Positions 4,541-14,485 of a stretch of 64,000 bases of DNA are shown piece after piece (position 1 is the stretch's first letter; each line of letters starts with the position of its first letter). Location of the stretch: positions 3,469,001 through 3,533,000 of the forward strand of contig NZ_CP116967.1 in assembly GCF_032050975.1 (NCBI RefSeq), written 5' to 3'. The stretch is from Candidatus Nitrospira allomarina (GTDB lineage Bacteria; Nitrospirota; Nitrospiria; Nitrospirales; UBA8639). Below the pieces are notes generated by a model that saw only the letters and a program-made list of their open reading frames with translations, was not told the origin of the DNA and did not search any database. The translations under genes were made by a program, and so were the position numbers.

Positions 4541-6175
4541 CTAGGACGATGACGAACACATGATGCGTTCGTATAACTGATGTACAGTGGTGGTATGCCG
4601 GCGATAGTCGTTCAGGAATTTTTCCGTGGCCTGCCCCACGGTTCCCCGTTTGAGGTAACCCATTCTAACAGCACATTTGGCAATTTCGTCCGTCTTACTC
4701 GGGAGCAGATGCGTTTGAAATTCATGGACCATTTGAAGTTTGTGCTCAAGATTTCTCAAAAACACATACGACTTTTTTAGGAGGCGCGCCTCCTGAGCCG
4801 TGAGTTTTTCAATGTGCCTCAACTTCACCAACGCTTTGAGTGTTTGCCGGTCACGGATTTTAGGATACGCCTGTCCCCAACGCAGTTGAAGAGCTTGAAC
4901 AATAAATTCGATTTCCCGAATCCCTCCGATGCCCAGTTTGACATGCCGGTCGACTTCCCCTCGTCGAATCATCTTGGCCAGAATTTGTGACCGGAGGGAA
5001 TGTATAGCCTGAAAGACCTGCCCTTCGTCTTCTTCATGCCCATACACAAAGTTTGTCAGCCCCTTGATTAAAGCCTCCCCCACACGGAGATTCCCGGCAA
5101 TAGGCTTGGCTTTGAGAAAGGCCAGACGTTCCCAGGTACGTCCCCGGCCCGCATAATAATGAAGCGCGTCTTCAAGGGACGAAGCCAAGGGTCCGACCAT
5201 TCCTTCCGGACGGAGACGGAGATCGACTCGAAACAAAGCTCCTTCCGCTGTGGGCGCCGTTAAGACCGCCGTGAGTTCCCTGGCCAGCGTTTCACAATAC
5301 AGGGCTCGCGAAATACTGGTTTGTCCCCTCCCCGCTCTGGTCATTCCTTCGGGGGCATGGTACACATAAATCAGATCGACATCCGAGCTATAATTCAGCT
5401 CCCATCCCCCGAGTTTCCCCATCGCCAGCACGGAGAAACCGTCTCCCATTTTCCCGGTCGATGTCCCCTCTCCAAAATCGCCAAACCGCAGCGTTAACTC
5501 CCGGTTCACCAGTTCATAGACCGCTTGAATCACAGCCGAGGCCAGATCCGATAACACCGTATAGGTTTCGACCGGCGTCGCAATGCCCAAGAGATCGCGA
5601 ATCCCGATCCGGAGCATTTCGCGCCGTTTCAGCCGTCGTAATGCTTCACATTTTGCCTCAAAACTCGTCACCGTACTGAGCGCAGCCTGCACGTGGGCCT
5701 CCAGAGCTACCCGCGTCATCCGCCGTCGCAGAACCCCATCATCTTCAATCCAATACACGAGTAACGGATCACGGATAAAGGTTTGCGCCATGGCGGGACT
5801 ATTCCCGAACGCCGCGCCCAACACTTCAACCACATGCGGAACCATCGCTAAATATTGAAACAGTTGGAGCCGCTGGATCCCGGAATCGACATACCGTTCC
5901 CATTCATTGATGGCCTGATCCGGGTCGGCCGTTCGCCCCACGCTACTTAAGACCGCAGGCAGAATGGTTGCCAGGGCTTTCCGTGTGACCGGTTCCCCGG
6001 CCATGGCCTGCAGATTCTGGTCGGCCCGTTTCCAATCCTGCAGGCTATAGGCCTCAAGAATGTGGGCCACGTCCCGGGAGGGAAGTCCTGAAGCCAGAAG
6101 TAAGGGCGTCGGATCGGGAAGGGAAGCAGCGGAAGGATCACCCTCGGAAGCTGTGTGTGGTGTAAAAGCGCTCAT
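4541..6175 (-). CDS. GlnE-type glutamine synthetase adenylyltransferase, N-terminal-half homologue
   Basis: GlnE adds AMP to, or removes it from, a Tyr of glutamine synthetase and normally has two nucleotidyltransferase halves in one ~950-residue chain. This protein has only one half (about 544 residues): a GlnE domain with GMGKLGGWELNYSSDVDLI, where the metal-binding D-x-D is intact, then VDLRLRPEG, then a GlnD_UR_UTase-type helical domain (from about residue 400, GIGGIREIEFIVQALQL). ELN-SSD resembles the adenylyl-removing half of E. coli GlnE. The other half is on the opposite strand next door. ATG at 6175 is taken as the start; a TTG at 6181 is possible. No Shine-Dalgarno is visible. Confidence 0.88.
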   Translation of the reverse strand: MSAFTPHTASEGDPSAASLPDPTPLLLASGLPSRDVAHILEAYSLQDWKRADQNLQAMAGEPVTRKALATILPAVLSSVGRTADPDQAINEWERYVDSGIQRLQLFQYLAMVPHVVEVLGAAFGNSPAMAQTFIRDPLLVYWIEDDGVLRRRMTRVALEAHVQAALSTVTSFEAKCEALRRLKRREMLRIGIRDLLGIATPVETYTVLSDLASAVIQAVYELVNRELTLRFGDFGEGTSTGKMGDGFSVLAMGKLGGWELNYSSDVDLIYVYHAPEGMTRAGRGQTSISRALYCETLARELTAVLTAPTAEGALFRVDLRLRPEGMVGPLASSLEDALHYYAGRGRTWERLAFLKAKPIAGNLRVGEALIKGLTNFVYGHEEDEGQVFQAIHSLRSQILAKMIRRGEVDRHVKLGIGGIREIEFIVQALQLRWGQAYPKIRDRQTLKALVKLRHIEKLTAQEARLLKKSYVFLRNLEHKLQMVHEFQTHLLPSKTDEIAKCAVRMGYLKRGTVGQATEKFLNDYRRHTTTVHQLYERIMCSSSS

Positions 6176-6188
6176 CGTCAAAGGGAAA

Positions 6189-6217
6189 ATTATACGGAAG
6201 CGCGGCAGACCTTACAA
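6189..6217 (-). promoter_or_regulatory. Sigma-70-type promoter of the minus-strand glnE-like gene
   Basis: Read on the minus strand, TTGTAA (6217-6212) and a perfect TATAAT (6194-6189) are separated by exactly 17 bases. The expected start of transcription, about 7 bases further, falls at about 6182, directly at the start codon (6175 or 6181). The message would then be leaderless, in agreement with the missing ribosome binding site. Confidence 0.6.
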
Positions 6218-6239
6218 TGCAACAATTTTTCAGTATACT
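6212..6239 (+). promoter_or_regulatory. Divergent promoter of the plus-strand GlnD/GlnE hybrid gene
   Basis: A good -10 box TATACT sits at 6234-6239, with a weak -35 TTACAA at 6212-6217 and a 16-base spacer. The -35 hexamer is the same six base pairs used, on the other strand, by the divergent promoter. Transcription would begin near 6246, next to the ATG at 6248, again leaving no leader. Confidence 0.45.
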
Positions 6240-6247
6240 CGGACACC

Positions 6248-8494
6248 ATGAACGAAGCCGAGCGGATCCAGTCGTATCAAACCCAATGTCCTGATCTTCG
6301 TCCGGCCTTGATCAGAGATTTTGTCCGGCAGATGGACCCGGATTATTTTGACAGCTTTCCTCCCGCCGCGATCCTGGAACATTTAGCTCTGGCAAACCAG
6401 CTCACGTTTGAACGACCCTGTGCGATCTCGATCAAGACTCTCCCCGCCCGGCAATACCAACTGACTCTCGTGGGGTATGACTATTTTTCAGAATTTGCCA
6501 TGTTCTGTGGCGTCTTATCGTCCTTTGGGTTGGACATTCGCGAGGCCACGATTTTCACCTCGCTGGAGACCACATCCCCCACTTCCCTTTCCAGGAAATC
6601 CATTCCGGGACACGCGCCCATGGGTGGATCTTCACAAGGGACTCGAGGGTTGACCCGAAAAATTGTGGTGGATGTCTTTCACGTGCAGGCTCTTGAAGAC
6701 GTGAAATTTGAGGAACCTGAACAACGTGAGCTTCAAGAAATGGTGACGGCCCTCCTCATCCTTCTTCAAAAGAATCAAATCCGGCAAGCTCGTCGCCAGG
6801 TCAATCGACGACTGATTGAAAATCTAGAGAACATGCGGCAAAAACCAACGGAGATGGTCCATCCGGTACACATCAGCTTTTCCAACCCGCGTGGCAGTCA
6901 TGAAACCATCCTGGATATTAGCTCAACCGATACGCCGGCGTTTCTCTACACCTTTGCCAATGCCCTGGCCATGCGCGGCATCTATATTGTGAAAGCCAAG
7001 ATTGAAGTCGCCAAGCATCGCGTCCGCAACCGTCTCTACGTTCGCGGGCGGCAAGGCGAAAAAATTCAGGGGAAAGCCGAACAACAGGAACTGCGAACGG
7101 CGGCCACCTTACTGAAAGAATTCACCCATTACCTGAGGTGGGCACCGGACCCCGGGAAAGCGCTCGACCATTTTGATCAATTCCTGGATCAATGGTTAGA
7201 GCAGGCGAATACCTCATCGCATCTCACCAAGCTGAGCCAGGCTTCCACTTTGGAACGACTGGCGCAACTCTTCGGCAGCAGTGATTACCTGTGGGAGGAC
7301 TTACTTCGCCGGCAGCATAACAATTTATTGCCGATGATGAATCAGTACCAAAAGGGTCCCCTGATCCGGTCAAAAGCCATCCTCAGCAAAGCCATCGAGC
7401 CGTTATTGCTCAAAGCCAAAACTCCCGCCGACAAAAAACAGCGCTTGAATCAATGGAAAGATGAAGAACTGTTTCGAATCGATATGCGTCATCTCCTGGA
7501 GAATAGTCCGCTCCCGCAGTTTTCTCAGGCCCTGACCAATCTCGCTGACGTCATTCTCAATCAGGCCCTGTTGCATTCTCAACAGGCGATCAATCCAAAA
7601 GCCTCCCTCACCGCTCCGCCGTCGATGGCCATCTTTGGATTAGGGAAACTCGGGGGAGGCGAATTAGGGTATGCCTCCGATATCGAGATTCTGTTCGTCT
7701 ATCACATGCCGGGCACACCACCGCGCGGTCAGACCGCGCGGGTATCCTCGGATTATTTTGAACGCTGGGCCCAGGAATTTCTCCAATGGATTGAAGCCAA
7801 ACAGGAAGGCATTTTTCACCTGGATACCCGCCTTCGGCCGCATGGAGAGAAAGGGCTCCTCGCCAATTCCCTGGAAGAGATTCAGCACTATTATACGTCA
7901 GAGGGCGGAGCCGCTCCATTTGAACGACAAGCCCTTATCAAGCTTCGATTTCTTGCCGGCAATCGTGCCGTCGGAAAAGCCGTTGAACAACATCGTGACC
8001 TATTTGTCTATGCCCCCGACCCATGGGACCTGCAGACCGCCCTCCACCTTCGTGAACGGCAGATCAAGGAATTGGTCCGGCCGGGAACCACACATGTAAA
8101 ATACGGAGCGGGAGGCCTCCTTGATGTGGAGTATACGGTGCAATACCTTCAACTCATGCACGGACACGACCTTCCTTCCATTCGTACTCCCAATACGCTC
8201 GAAGCCATCGATCATCTAAGCGGGGAAGGCCTGTTCAGTCTAGAGGAGGGGGCCCAACTCAAAGACCACTATGTGTATTTCCGACAACTCATTGATGGAC
8301 TGAGAATTGTCCGTGGCCATGCCCAGGACCTTGTCCTGCCCCCATCCGGTTCTGATGAAATGGTTTTTCTCGCCCGCCGGCTCGGAATGCTCACCACAAA
8401 CTGGCTTCAGGGGGCCGACGATCTGGAGCATGCGATCCACTCCAGGATGAGAAAGATTCACGAACAATTTCTTCGACGGTTTCCCAAACGCTAA
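6248..8494 (+). CDS. GlnD/GlnE hybrid: tandem ACT domains fused to a GlnE-type adenylyltransferase half
   Basis: The 748-residue product starts with two ACT-like domains. The first (about 60-155) reads YQLTLVGYDYFSEF then DVFHVQ; the second (about 207-290) reads ISSTDTPAFLYTFANAL then RNRLYVRG. Their order and spacing copy the C-terminal amino-acid-sensing pair of GlnD. A GlnE nucleotidyltransferase domain follows (FGLGKLGGGELGYASDIEIL near 461-480, LDTRLRPHG, FERQALIKLR) and then a GlnD_UR_UTase-type domain (about 590-730). ELGY-SD resembles the adenylylating half of E. coli GlnE, but the second metal Asp is Glu. An upstream in-frame start at 6155 would run into the divergent gene, so ATG 6248 is preferred. 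It converges on glnA. Confidence 0.85.
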   Translation: MNEAERIQSYQTQCPDLRPALIRDFVRQMDPDYFDSFPPAAILEHLALANQLTFERPCAISIKTLPARQYQLTLVGYDYFSEFAMFCGVLSSFGLDIREATIFTSLETTSPTSLSRKSIPGHAPMGGSSQGTRGLTRKIVVDVFHVQALEDVKFEEPEQRELQEMVTALLILLQKNQIRQARRQVNRRLIENLENMRQKPTEMVHPVHISFSNPRGSHETILDISSTDTPAFLYTFANALAMRGIYIVKAKIEVAKHRVRNRLYVRGRQGEKIQGKAEQQELRTAATLLKEFTHYLRWAPDPGKALDHFDQFLDQWLEQANTSSHLTKLSQASTLERLAQLFGSSDYLWEDLLRRQHNNLLPMMNQYQKGPLIRSKAILSKAIEPLLLKAKTPADKKQRLNQWKDEELFRIDMRHLLENSPLPQFSQALTNLADVILNQALLHSQQAINPKASLTAPPSMAIFGLGKLGGGELGYASDIEILFVYHMPGTPPRGQTARVSSDYFERWAQEFLQWIEAKQEGIFHLDTRLRPHGEKGLLANSLEEIQHYYTSEGGAAPFERQALIKLRFLAGNRAVGKAVEQHRDLFVYAPDPWDLQTALHLRERQIKELVRPGTTHVKYGAGGLLDVEYTVQYLQLMHGHDLPSIRTPNTLEAIDHLSGEGLFSLEEGAQLKDHYVYFRQLIDGLRIVRGHAQDLVLPPSGSDEMVFLARRLGMLTTNWLQGADDLEHAIHSRMRKIHEQFLRRFPKR

Positions 8495-8547
8495 CGCCCG
8501 GGCATCAGAAGGCATGACGTCGCCTTCATGGAATACCCGGGCGTTAG
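8491..8547. terminator. Large hairpin between the hybrid glnE-like gene and glnA
   Basis: CTAACGCCCGGG (8491-8502) pairs perfectly with CCCGGGCGTTAG (8536-8547), and inside it GAAGGC (8508-8513) pairs with GCCTTC (8522-8527). The left arm overlaps the stop codon of the plus-strand gene. Only a short run of A/T follows, so it is a strong stem-loop with probable terminator or mRNA-end function. Confidence 0.7.
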
Positions 8548-8559
8548 AAAACCCACCGA

Positions 8560-8584
8560 CCTTTCCCGCAGACAGGCGGAAAGG
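8560..8584 (-). terminator. Hairpin downstream of glnA
   Basis: CCTTTCC (8560-8566) and GGAAAGG (8578-8584) form a 7-bp stem just past the glnA stop (8602). On the minus strand a GTGGGTTTTC stretch follows a few bases later, giving a modest T tract. Confidence 0.45.
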
Positions 8585-8601
8585 TTGACGCTTAACGTTG
8601 T

Positions 8602-10011
8602 TTACACATCATAGTACATAAAGTATTCATACGGGTGTGGCCTGACTCGAATGGCATCGATTTCATTGGACCGTTTATAGGCAATCCAGGCTTCAAGCAG
8701 GTCTTCGGAAAACACTCCGCCTTTCAAGAGAAATTCATGGTCATCCTCAAGCGCCTTTAAGGCCTGTTCCAGACTCGAAGGCAATGAGGGAATATTCCCT
8801 AATTCCTCAGGTTCTAAATCATAAAGATTTTTATCCATGGCTTCCCCTGGATGGATTTTATTTTGAATCCCGTCCAATCCGGCCATCAGCATGGCACTGA
8901 AGGCCAAATACATGTTGCAGGAAGGATCAGGGAATCGAACCTCAATGCGCTTGGCCTTGGGACTCGGCGAATACATGGGAATCCGGATGCCCGCCGATCG
9001 GTTCCGGCTGGAATAGGCCAGCAGCACGGGTGCTTCAAAGCCCGGGGTCAAGCGTTTGTACGAATTCGTAATCGGATTGGTGAGCGCGGCCAGGGCCGGA
9101 CCATGCTTGAGTATCCCGCCGATATAATATAAGCACATCTGTGAGACACCCGCGTATTCCTTTCCGGCAAACAGAGGCTTCCCGTCCTTCCAAATGCTCT
9201 GATGCGTATGCATGCCGGTGCCGTTATCCCCATAGAGCGGCTTGGGCATAAAGGTCACGGTTTTGTTATGTCGCCGCGCGACATTGCGCACAATATATTT
9301 GTACATCATCATCTGATCGGCCATCTTGACCAGAGTATCGAATCGAAGATCGATTTCGGCTTGGCCCGCTGTGGCCACTTCATGATGATGCTTCTCCACC
9401 TTGATTCCGACTTTTTCCATTTCCCGGCACATTTCCGACCGGATATCCTGTTGCGAGTCGACGGGGGACACGGGGAAATAGCCCTCCTTGTGGCGCGGGC
9501 GTGATCCGAGGTTGACTCCGTCTTTTCCGGAATTCCAGATGCCTTCTTCTGAATCAACAAAGTAGTAACCGGAGTGGCTGTTTTGATCAAACGACACATG
9601 GTCAAAAATAAAAAATTCGGCTTCCGGGCCCCAGTAGGAGATGTCTCCGATTTTCGTGCTCTTGAGATATTGTTCCGCGCGAAGCGCCACTCCACGGGGA
9701 TCCCGCTCATAGATGGTCCGGGTAATCGGATCTTGCACGTCTCCAATCAGGCTTAACGTGGGAATTTCCATGAATGGATCCAGGCAGGCGGTATTCGGAT
9801 CAGGCACGATCAACATGTCGCTATTTTGGATCATGCGCCAGCCACGAATAGACGATCCATCAAAACCAGAGCCTTCTTTAAAGAGATCCAACGTTAACTC
9901 TGAGGTCGGAATCGAAAAATGCTGCCAGGTCCCCATGAGATCGACAAACTTCACGTCGACCATTTCCACCTTGTTCTTTTTCGCAAAATCCAACACTTCT
10001 TTCGCGGTCAT
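8602..10011 (-). CDS. glnA: Glutamine synthetase, type I
   Basis: GlnA makes glutamine from glutamate, ammonia and ATP in the cytoplasm. The 469-residue product has the same length as the E. coli enzyme and the same landmarks: beta-grasp N-domain, [10 protein letters not shown], the catalytic [10 protein letters not shown] signature near residue 265 and [19 protein letters not shown] near residue 395 is the adenylylation loop with its target Tyr, so control by the two GlnE-like proteins next door is expected. A strong ribosome site AGGAGG precedes the ATG. It ends a minus-strand row porin-amt-glnK-amt-glnA, with 102 bases separating it from amt. Confidence 0.98.
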
Positions 10012-10113: not shown

Positions 10114-11427
10114 TTAGGAATAGGCCCGTTCGTTGTGTTGACTAAGATCCAACCCCATTTCCTCGTCCTGGGCGGTGACTCTCAGCCCCACGGTCACATC
10201 CACGATTTTAAGAATGAGATAGGTCCCGATGACAGAAAACGCCAAGGTTACCAAAGCCAATACGACTTGTATACCAAACTGTCCGGGGTTTCCAAAAAAG
10301 AAACCCTGGGCCCCGATGGAGGCAAACAACCCTGTCGCTAATATGCCCATAAACCCGCCCACGCCATGAATGCCCACGACATCCAGCGAATCATCATAAC
10401 CGAACCGCATTTTCCACACGACCGCGATATAACACACGGTGCCGGCAACCAGACCAATCAGAAGTGCTGCCATCGGCCCGATAAATCCTGCGGCCGGCGT
10501 CACCGTGGCCAACCCCGCGACCACTCCACTGGCGACCCCTAACACGGTGGGTTTTCCCCTATGAACCCATTCGGCCACCATCCAACTGAGCCCCCCGGCC
10601 GAGGCGGCCGTATGAGTGGCCAGAAACGCCGCCGCGGCCACCCCATTGGCTCCTAGCGCACTCCCCGCGTTAAAGCCGAACCACCCGAACCAGAGGAGGC
10701 CCGCACCCAGGACGGTCATTGGCAAATCATGTGGAGGCATCGGCTCTGCACCAAATCCCTTGCGCTTCCCAAGCATCACGGCACAGACCAGGGCTCCGAA
10801 CCCGGAAGAGATATGGACGACCGCACCTCCGGCAAAATCCAACGCGCCAAGCTTGGCCAACCACCCCCCACCCCATACCCAATGGGCCAACGGGGTATAG
10901 ATCAGAAGGGACCATAAGACGGCAAATAAGAGTAAGGCTTTAAATTTCATCCGCTCGGCCACACTGCCGGTAATCAGGGCGACGGTGATGGCGGCAAACA
11001 TGAGCTGGAAGAACATAAAGACTTGATGGGGCACTGTCGACGCATACAGCGGACTCGGATCCAATCCCACACCATTCAGACCCACCCATGCCAGGCTGCC
11101 AATAATTCCTCCAACATCAGGACCGAAGGCTAAACTGTATCCGCCTAGCACCCAGACCAGGCTAATGACACACAGAATCACCATCGTATGCATGATAGTT
11201 CCGAGCACATTTTTTTTGCGAACCAGCCCGCCGTAGAATAAGGCCAGACCGGGAAGCGTCATACACAACACCAGCGCCGAAGACATTAAGAGCCAGGCCG
11301 TATCGCCCGTATCAATTTTCGGCAACCCTTCTTCACCTGCCCAAACGGCAACGGGTTGAGTCAAACTCAGGCCGAGCACCAGTCCGGTCAATTTCCCCAT
11401 CGTTGAGCGTAGAATCATCAGATTCAT
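10114..11427 (-). CDS. amt: Ammonium transporter Amt (copy nearest glnA)
   Basis: Amt proteins are trimeric inner-membrane channels that bring in ammonium and are blocked by PII. The product of about 437 residues has an N-terminal signal-like segment ending near VWAG, then about eleven membrane helices with family hallmarks GDTAWLLMSSALVL, PGLALFYGGLVR, APLAHWVWGGGWL and DFAGGAVVHISSG, and DSLDVVGIHGVGG near the C-terminus. The C-terminal tail ends LDLSQHNERAYS. ATG at 11427 is chosen because GGAGG lies just before it; an ATG seven codons earlier has no such site. It follows glnK by 44 bases, the usual glnK-amt pairing. Confidence 0.96.
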   Translation of the reverse strand: MNLMILRSTMGKLTGLVLGLSLTQPVAVWAGEEGLPKIDTGDTAWLLMSSALVLCMTLPGLALFYGGLVRKKNVLGTIMHTMVILCVISLVWVLGGYSLAFGPDVGGIIGSLAWVGLNGVGLDPSPLYASTVPHQVFMFFQLMFAAITVALITGSVAERMKFKALLLFAVLWSLLIYTPLAHWVWGGGWLAKLGALDFAGGAVVHISSGFGALVCAVMLGKRKGFGAEPMPPHDLPMTVLGAGLLWFGWFGFNAGSALGANGVAAAAFLATHTAASAGGLSWMVAEWVHRGKPTVLGVASGVVAGLATVTPAAGFIGPMAALLIGLVAGTVCYIAVVWKMRFGYDDSLDVVGIHGVGGFMGILATGLFASIGAQGFFFGNPGQFGIQVVLALVTLAFSVIGTYLILKIVDVTVGLRVTAQDEEMGLDLSQHNERAYS

Positions 11428-11471
11428 TTCCCCTCCTCGAGTCAACACGTGATGTGGTCGGGTGCCAATGG

Positions 11472-11831
<360 letters not shown>

Positions 11832-11925: not shown

Positions 11926-13239
11926 TTACCCATAGGCCCGTTCCCGGTGTTGGGTCAGATCACATCCAAGCACCTCCTCTTCTCGAGTGACACGTAATCC
12001 GATCGTGCCGTCAACAAGTTTGAGGATGAGATAGGTGCCGACAAAGGAGAACGCCCATGTTGCACCCACTCCAATCACTTGGATGACAACCTGCGAGGGG
12101 TTTCCGAAAAAGAGCCCGGTGCCTCCACCCATGCTCGCAAATAATCCGGTGGCCACGGCCCCCCAGGTTCCTCCGATTCCATGGATCCCAAGCACATCCA
12201 AGGCATCATCATAGCCCAGTTTATTCTTTAAAAATACACCGAGATAACACACCACGCCTCCTCCAAAACCAATCACAAGCGCCCCGATGGGCCCCACATA
12301 CCCGGCAGCTGGTGTAATGGACACCAGACCCGCGACGGCACCGCTGGCCGCGCCCAACACGGTCGCTCTTCCTCGATAGAGTCCCTCCACCCCGACCCAG
12401 GCCAGCGCTCCGGCGGCCGTCGCCACGTGAGTCGCCACAAAGGCACTCGCCGCAATCCCATTGGCTGCCAACGCACTTCCTGCGTTAAATCCAAACCATC
12501 CGACCCACAACAAACTGGCCCCGATGACCGTAAAGGGCAGGTTATGGGGGCTCATATTGTCGGTACCATATCCGTGGCGTTTTCCTAAGACAAGCGCGCA
12601 GGCTAACGCAGCCACCCCCGAACTGATGTGGACCACCGTCCCACCGGCAAAATCCAAGTCACCCAATTCTGCGAGCCAGCCACCTCCCCACACCCAATGA
12701 GCCAGAGGCGCATAAATGAACGTGACCCACAACACGGCAAACAAGGCAAAGGCACTAAATTTCATTCGCTCGGCAATGGCTCCACTAATGAGCGCCACGG
12801 TAATGGCCGCAAACATGAGTTGAAAGACCATGAAGGCCAAATGGGGAATCGTGGAACCTTGAAGCGGTTCGGGTCCCACCCCTACCAATCCCAACCAGTC
12901 GAGTCCGCCAATGACGCCTCCCACATCCGGCGCAAACGCAAAACTATAACCCCAAAACACCCACACCACACTGACGAGACAGACGGCAATAAAACTATGC
13001 ATCATGGTGCTTAACACATTTTTACTTCTGACCATCCCCCCATAAAACAGCGCCAATCCCGGTATGATCATGGCCAACACCAAGGCTGAGGACATCAACA
13101 CCCAAGCCGTGTCGCCGGCATTGAGTTCCGAGGCTCCTCCATCCTGAGCCCACACGAATGAGCCCAACCCGTTCAAGACCAAAACAGACATGACTGCCGA
13201 CAATATCGCTCTACTGGCTTTGTGAATATAGACCTTCAT
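11926..13239 (-). CDS. amt: Ammonium transporter Amt (second copy, with signal peptide)
   Basis: About 437 residues. It opens with a signal peptide (hydrophobic stretch then FVWAQDGGA), followed by the Amt core: GDTAWVLMSSALVL, PGLALFYGGMVRSKNVL, APLAHWVWGGGWL, DFAGGTVVHISSG and DALDVLGIHGIGG. It closely resembles the neighbouring Amt, so the two look like a gene duplication that kept glnK between them. ATG 13239 has AAGGAG nine bases upstream; a longer frame starting at 13287 would overlap the porin stop. The C-terminus ends LTQHRERAYG, matching the other copy. Confidence 0.96.
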   Translation of the reverse strand: MKVYIHKASRAILSAVMSVLVLNGLGSFVWAQDGGASELNAGDTAWVLMSSALVLAMIIPGLALFYGGMVRSKNVLSTMMHSFIAVCLVSVVWVFWGYSFAFAPDVGGVIGGLDWLGLVGVGPEPLQGSTIPHLAFMVFQLMFAAITVALISGAIAERMKFSAFALFAVLWVTFIYAPLAHWVWGGGWLAELGDLDFAGGTVVHISSGVAALACALVLGKRHGYGTDNMSPHNLPFTVIGASLLWVGWFGFNAGSALAANGIAASAFVATHVATAAGALAWVGVEGLYRGRATVLGAASGAVAGLVSITPAAGYVGPIGALVIGFGGGVVCYLGVFLKNKLGYDDALDVLGIHGIGGTWGAVATGLFASMGGGTGLFFGNPSQVVIQVIGVGATWAFSFVGTYLILKLVDGTIGLRVTREEEVLGCDLTQHRERAYG

Positions 13240-13264
13240 CGTCTTTTGCTCCTTGGACCTCTTC

Positions 13265-14485
13265 TTAAAAGAGGAAAATGGCTTCAACCGCCAGTGTCTG
13301 TTGGTTATTAGTCAACGTATTTTTTCCATCTAGAAAAACATTTTGATTTGATTTGTCATATCGAAATTCCAATCGGGTGATCAGCGACGGGGTCGGCTTA
13401 TATTGAAGAGTCACCGTGTTCTCCCAAAGGGTTTGTGCGATCGGAGCTGACACGGCACAGACATTCGCATTTCCACCGGATCCGGCCGTTCCCAAACAAC
13501 TCTGATCGCCTCCGGCGTCCTCCCAAATTTCTCCACGAAACCGAAGACCCCATTGTTCATTGAAATCATAAATGGCATACCCCGCGACACCATCCCAACG
13601 GGCATTGCGTCCCGAGCTGATGGCACTTCCATTTTCTTGATTGGCATAATACCCTTCCACCACAAAACCCAATTGATCCGTGGCCTGGTAGGTCGCATAC
13701 CCGCCGATCAGAACCCGTGTGCCTGACCCCGATCTCGTATTCGAACTCTCTTTTCCAACAATGCCATACACATTCAATCCAAGCGCTTCAGTAGGGCGAT
13801 ACGACACTAAGCCTTCCACAGATTTCGGCGTATTATTATCCTCCGTCAAACCCGTATAAGAATTGAGAACACTCATTAACACTGAAAGCTGTTCGTTGAC
13901 GGCATAGGCCAGACGAAGGCCGGTGATCGTAAAGGGCTGACCCAAACCAAACAACCAGGATCGGGAAAAATTGTTGTTGTAGGGACTCTCAATGACTTCA
14001 TAGCCCACCAAGGAATTCATTCGTCCAATCCGAATATCCAATCCATTGCCGAGCGGGGCGACATACTGAACATACATTTCCTGAAAATCTATATCATCCC
14101 CGGTTCGCCCACCCGTAAATTGCGCATCCTCACCAACATCTAATTTCAGTCGAAAGCCCGCACGCTCGACGGCATTGCTGCCGTTGGTCGCTTCCTTTTC
14201 AAAGACCAATTGAGCCATATTGGGTCTGAATGAATTGGCATCCCCGTCAAAAATCCGTAAATCATTAGCATTGGCCCCGGAATTTTTAGGGAAGTTGAAA
14301 TTTTGCGTATAGGAGGCCTCCACATACCCATAGAGTTTGAAATCCTCCTTGGTTAACACCGCCGCCTCACTCACGCTCGTTCCGCCAACCACTACAAGCA
14401 ACACAAGACTAAGGCCCAATAGCCCGCTACGCCGACAAGCCTTCTGTGAGTGAAAGGTGATTTCAGGTATTAGGTCTCCAATCAT
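13265..14485 (-). CDS. Outer-membrane porin, OmpL/BBP2-like beta-barrel
   Basis: The product is 406 residues with an N-terminal export signal (hydrophobic stretch from about residue 20, cleavage near VSEAA). The mature start LYGYVEASYTQNFN, the many alternating-hydrophobicity strands and the final LAVEAIFLF ending in Phe are typical of an outer-membrane barrel of the BBP2 (OmpL-like) family. Such proteins form diffusion pores for small solutes. It stands first in the row before amt, with only 25 bases to amt, so a role in letting ammonium or other nitrogen compounds into the periplasm is likely. Substrate specificity cannot be read from the sequence. Confidence 0.85.
   Translation of the reverse strand: MIGDLIPEITFHSQKACRRSGLLGLSLVLLVVVGGTSVSEAAVLTKEDFKLYGYVEASYTQNFNFPKNSGANANDLRIFDGDANSFRPNMAQLVFEKEATNGSNAVERAGFRLKLDVGEDAQFTGGRTGDDIDFQEMYVQYVAPLGNGLDIRIGRMNSLVGYEVIESPYNNNFSRSWLFGLGQPFTITGLRLAYAVNEQLSVLMSVLNSYTGLTEDNNTPKSVEGLVSYRPTEALGLNVYGIVGKESSNTRSGSGTRVLIGGYATYQATDQLGFVVEGYYANQENGSAISSGRNARWDGVAGYAIYDFNEQWGLRFRGEIWEDAGGDQSCLGTAGSGGNANVCAVSAPIAQTLWENTVTLQYKPTPSLITRLEFRYDKSNQNVFLDGKNTLTNNQQTLAVEAIFLF

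Follow-up and report, generated by a model that had tools for sequence, protein, structure and literature searches.

A GlnE split between two opposed genes, one half joined to a GlnD-type ACT module, in the Nitrospira class

GlnE is a textbook bifunctional enzyme with opposing activities on one chain. In the window analysed here, a stretch of 64,000 nucleotides from Candidatus Nitrospira allomarina, two GlnE halves lie on opposite strands, and one of them begins with a region resembling the C-terminus of GlnD. This arrangement raises the question of whether the locus encodes an ordinary GlnE in two pieces or a nitrogen switch that has been rewired. An earlier note on this DNA had favoured the second possibility, proposing that the fused protein could sense glutamine directly and set GlnA adenylylation without the full GlnD-PII-GlnE cascade.

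Two GlnE halves beside glnA, amtB and glnK

P1, the GlnE N-terminal half as a gene of its own, occupies 4541..6175 on the minus strand (544 aa; ATG at 6175, stop codon at 4541-4543). P2, in which a tandem GlnD-type ACT module precedes the GlnE C-terminal half, occupies 6248..8494 on the plus strand (748 aa) and starts at ATG 6248 (+), not at GTG 6155, leaving the start codons of the head-to-head genes 73 bases apart. Next to the pair, in order and all on the minus strand, lie glnA (8602..10011), encoding a type I glutamine synthetase whose adenylylation-site motif NLYDLEPEE makes it the presumed target; amtB (10114..11448), the ammonium transporter; glnK (11472..11819), encoding a PII protein with Tyr51 in YRGTEY; and a second amtB (11926..13287). 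Both the separation of the GlnE halves onto opposite strands and this neighbourhood had been described correctly in the earlier note. The pair adjoins glnA in four members of its own family, the window's species counted among them.

Both proteins contain the PF03710 nucleotidyltransferase domain and the PF08335 helical domain above the Pfam cut-offs, at 5075..5821 (2.5e-61) and 4562..4984 (1.3e-25) on the minus strand in P1, and at 7253..7990 (7.3e-39) and 8090..8470 (2.2e-11) on the plus strand in P2. Comparison of the AlphaFold2 models (mean pLDDT 89.5 for P1 and 80.8 for P2) with solved structures placed the E. coli GlnE halves 1v4a and 3k7d on top for both proteins (Foldseek; 4.8e-24 for P1, 4.5e-16 and 3.8e-15 for P2). 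P1 aligned with the N half of one-chain relatives and formed one group with these N halves in a maximum-likelihood tree (support 100/99). P2 aligned mostly with the C half and fell outside the N-half clade, on the C-half side of the tree, on a long branch whose position among the C halves was weakly supported (88/45). Its phmmer score, slightly higher for 1v4a (N half) than for 3k7d (C half), counts against the C-half assignment.

The halves differ in their catalytic motifs. The motif described for GlnE is GX11DxD (PMC12894286), and P1 has it in canonical form (GKLGGWELNYSSDVD, 5375..5419, minus strand), with the G and both D residues invariant in 20 class members. In contrast, P2 has GX11DxE (GKLGGGELGYASDIE, 7643..7687, plus strand), and the Glu was found in 20 of the 20 fusions compared. 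The earlier reading of the second catalytic acid of the fused copy as Glu (SDIE) thus holds and, judged by this invariance, the Glu is a fixed trait of the fusions. The catalytic carboxylates and RLRP are invariant in both P1 and P2 of the class members compared, and in P2 these include the third carboxylate, D526, as well as all other catalytic positions.

A GlnD-type module ahead of the P2 transferase

The region preceding the P2 transferase (6311..7099, plus strand; residues 22-284 by TIGR01693) comprises a pre-ACT helix, ACT1 (6419..6691) and ACT2 (6866..7045). TIGR01693 matched P2 at 5.4e-15 (residues 48-315 of the 779-aa frame, profile positions 615-843), and the GlnD model PRK05092 matched it at 1.3e-22. 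The check for an ACT score suggested in the earlier note gave a divided answer, with matches to both GlnD models but none to the Pfam ACT models for the window's P2 at the Pfam cut-off; the TIGR01693 and PRK05092 matches override the Pfam-only negative for this region. Among the P2 members of the class that were scanned, TIGR01693 matched 11 of 11 (best 3.4e-21) and an ACT-like Pfam model 10 of 11 (best 5.8e-7).

Residue alignment extended the likeness to GlnD upstream of ACT1 into the short pre-ACT helix and, together with the GlnD models, upheld the claim of two N-terminal ACT-like domains in the order of the GlnD C-terminus. The structure predicted for the fused protein with AlphaFold2 agreed, showing the strand and helix order of two ACT domains before the GlnE half, and ACT chains were among the structural matches to P2, with weak E-values. 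The P2 ACT domains formed a single clade (100/100) on a long branch separate from the GlnD ACT domains, so that the donor lineage of the module is not readable from the tree.

ACT1 contains the loop D-Y-F-S/A-E-F and a disordered insert of ~30 residues, and ACT2 the loop D-T/S-P-A-F-L. Within these loops D78, Y79 and F83, and D228 and P230-L233, are invariant across the class. The Gly that is near-invariant in the beta1-alpha1 ligand loop of ACT and GlnD domains (PMC3173338) is absent from P2, being replaced by Ser or Ala in ACT1 and by Ala in ACT2 in 20/20 sequences. Invariant residues around a replaced Gly are what one would expect of a functional site in which the ligand geometry has changed, though the role of the loops may be purely structural. 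The ACT domains of GlnD are considered a glutamine sensor (PMC3173338), and it is only by descent from GlnD that glutamine becomes the leading candidate ligand here. Glutamine binding by the P2 ACT pair is plausible from the sequence; that glutamine is the ligand gating the module is a tentative proposal, to which we give slightly under an even chance.

Distribution and arrangement of the pair

The PF03710 matches in the window's own genome, a single 4.55-Mb contig, were P1, P2 and one GlnD only. The earlier note had proposed a whole-genome search for a full-length glnE and a separate glnD; by the PF03710 search the first is absent and the second is present. In this assembly the glnD gene (C1:1625984-1628690; L053, about 8500-8700) has a single frameshift inside ACT2, the 891-aa frame covering TIGR01693 positions 1-803 and the last 48 positions lying in another frame. 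The glnD genes of the same genus with a full-length match read through, with frames of about 900-947 aa. The frameshift may be a sequencing error or a real loss.

We looked for P1 and for the ACT region of P2 in each of 197 genomes of the class, and used PF03710 to re-examine those lacking a strong match to P2. Both genes were present in 167 genomes and neither in 26. P1 was found without P2 in three (beside a run of N in G185 and at contig ends in G195 and G246) and P2 without P1 in one (G107, with an in-frame stop close to a contig end). Joint presence gave a Fisher p of 5e-28, a value that is no measure of functional coupling, as the genomes are related and the genes adjacent; moreover, one deletion or one missing contig would remove both genes, so that joint absence proves less. 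An assembly artefact or frameshift as the source of the arrangement was rejected, as almost every genome sampled has P2 in a single open frame. The sampled class genomes showed no one-chain GlnE; in the genomes of the phylum sampled outside the class GlnE, where present, is one chain, mostly of 930-1080 aa, bar frames cut at contig ends. The split GlnE with its ACT fusion is class-wide and not a local oddity.

Genomes that keep the pair and genomes that lack it occur together in eight families (f1, f2, f3, f4, f5, f7, f30 and f31), which suggests that it has been lost repeatedly within the class. Several genomes without the pair are >95% complete, and the reported absence of glnE from freshwater lake Nitrospira (PMC9239080) fits this pattern of loss. 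A number of small, fairly complete genomes (G137, G236, G154, G161, G207, G248 and others) have lost P1 and P2 and kept glnA and glnD-like matches. The adenylylation Tyr of GlnA was uninformative as a test of co-evolution, being kept in 21 of the 22 readable genomes without the pair (Phe in G149).

A scan of genome contigs with one divergent P2 returned three close relatives only, and among the matches listed for plasmid records all were GlnE-like, fell on the C half and lacked an ACT part. Long GlnE frames of 1173-1311 aa in other groups (L054, L060, L061) were considered as ACT fusions and set aside, their N-terminal excess looking domainless.

Among the loci read, the pair was divergent in f1, f2, f5, f30, f31 and f34, convergent in f3, f4, f6, f7 and f32, and never codirectional. 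Its convergence in five families indicates that the divergent arrangement is not essential; the features that persist are opposite strands and adjacency. In f34 (G168, G171, G158 and G175) the gap between the divergent genes is apparently ~1.5 kb, compared to the usual 60-100 bases. In the window, back-to-back overlapping sigma70-like promoters are predicted from sequence only at 6189..6239, TTGTAA-17-TATAAT on the minus strand for P1 and CTTACA-17-TATACT on the plus strand for P2, with both start codons 8-13 nt past the -10 elements. The gap in f1 and f2 is mostly 63-78 bases, with back-to-back -10 elements (ATTATA for P1, TATACT for P2), and a TATACT-like element upstream of P2 is kept in most divergent relatives and in same-genus loci. 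Overlapping promoters are suggested by these features, as are near-leaderless divergent transcripts, which the few bases between -10 element and start codon would imply.

Proposed roles and comparison with known systems

We propose, with a probability of about 0.7, that GlnE was split and that its adenylylating half, while acting on GlnA, lost the half to which it had been covalently joined and took up a GlnD-type regulatory module instead. The homology, split, fusion, conservation and joint presence behind this proposal are observations, and the roles of the halves and their target are taken from E. coli, where AMPylation is the work of the C-terminal domain of GlnE and deAMPylation that of the N-terminal domain (PMC12409994). 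By that mapping, P1 would remove and P2 would add AMP on GlnA, both at the NLYDL tyrosine, which the window's GlnA keeps; P2, the half with the sensor-type module, would be the one that turns glutamine synthetase off. One ancestral GlnE would have split into P1 and P2 before the class diversified, and the position of the N half ahead of P2 would have been taken by a homologue of the GlnD C-terminus, from pre-ACT helix to ACT2. The ACT module would most likely gate P2 adenylylation by nitrogen status, and at least one of P1 and P2 probably remains a target of PII or PII-UMP, given that GlnK and GlnD are encoded.

The same two proteins weaken the earlier idea of a bypass: with GlnD encoded elsewhere and Tyr51 retained in the YRGTEY loop of the adjacent GlnK, the cascade is not absent. 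We regard as rather doubtful a short circuit in which the ACT pair of P2 would sense glutamine, or some other nitrogen metabolite, and P2 would adenylylate GlnA directly, with a separate P1 deadenylylating it. If it were true, the opposing activities would be controlled and expressed as separate proteins in a whole class that includes nitrifiers. GlnD and the GlnK tyrosine favour a rival account, in which the pair is an ordinary GlnE under GlnD and PII and the ACT module, purely structural or dimerising, replaces the missing N half and binds no ligand. The loss of the ligand-loop Gly from both ACT domains and the disordered insert in the ACT1 hairpin speak for this account, but the class-wide invariance of the ACT loop residues exceeds the needs of scaffolding, and we consider it a real possibility that nevertheless falls well below even odds.

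The DxE motif could alternatively mean that P2 is catalytically impaired and serves as a sensing regulatory subunit of P1, which would carry out the remaining chemistry; every P2 has DxE instead of DxD, and P1 keeps the canonical motif. However, the other catalytic positions of P2, D526 and RLRP included, are invariant, and Glu at the second acid position is tolerated in the wider superfamily, where the general pattern is Dh[DE]h. Since Glu is tolerated there, P2 is probably active as a transferase, perhaps with a changed metal preference, and impairment appears unlikely. Of the earlier suggestion that the Glu alters catalysis, the residue itself stands, as a conserved family trait that is not, taken alone, a sign that catalysis has been lost. 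We consider it very improbable that the target of P2 is a protein other than GlnA, such as GlnK, with P2 being in effect a GlnE catalytic half turned into a modifier of the GlnD kind. The GlnD-type regulatory module and the nearby amt-glnK-amt genes would suit such a role, but P2 is without an HD domain, its transferase and helical domains are of the GlnE type, and a separate GlnD is encoded.

On the proposal of a split GlnE with an exchanged partner, a textbook enzyme has been taken apart class-wide and a GlnD-type regulatory module joined to one half, which hints at a rewired nitrogen switch in the Nitrospira class. With such a pair nature would provide a system for investigating adenylylation and its sensor apart from deadenylylation and its own. 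Bacteria of the Nitrospira group rank among the major nitrifiers, and the way they control the activity of glutamine synthetase is relevant to how they manage ammonium.

Two glnE genes in Nitrospira are already present in annotation, where the adjacent locus tags NITMOv2_1289 and NITMOv2_1290 of Nitrospira moscoviensis are named GlnEB (PMC6131200). Judged by name and adjacency, these are very likely the same pair as P1 and P2; that paper counts reads only, and its passages on the two genes report no domain analysis or ACT fusion. A search of the openly accessible literature found no published description of the ACT fusion, the class-wide split or the DxE motif. P2 shares with the C-terminal region of GlnD the order of pre-ACT helix, ACT1 and ACT2 (TIGR01693 615-843) but differs from GlnD in having neither its transferase nor its HD domain, the transferase being of the GlnE type, in the ACT1 insert and the replaced ligand-loop Gly, and in existing beside a separate GlnD. 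With E. coli GlnE the pair has in common PF03710 and PF08335 in both halves, the folds of 1v4a and 3k7d and the presumed GlnA target, whereas its halves are two genes on opposite strands and its C half, P2, carries GX11DxE and an N-terminal ACT pair.
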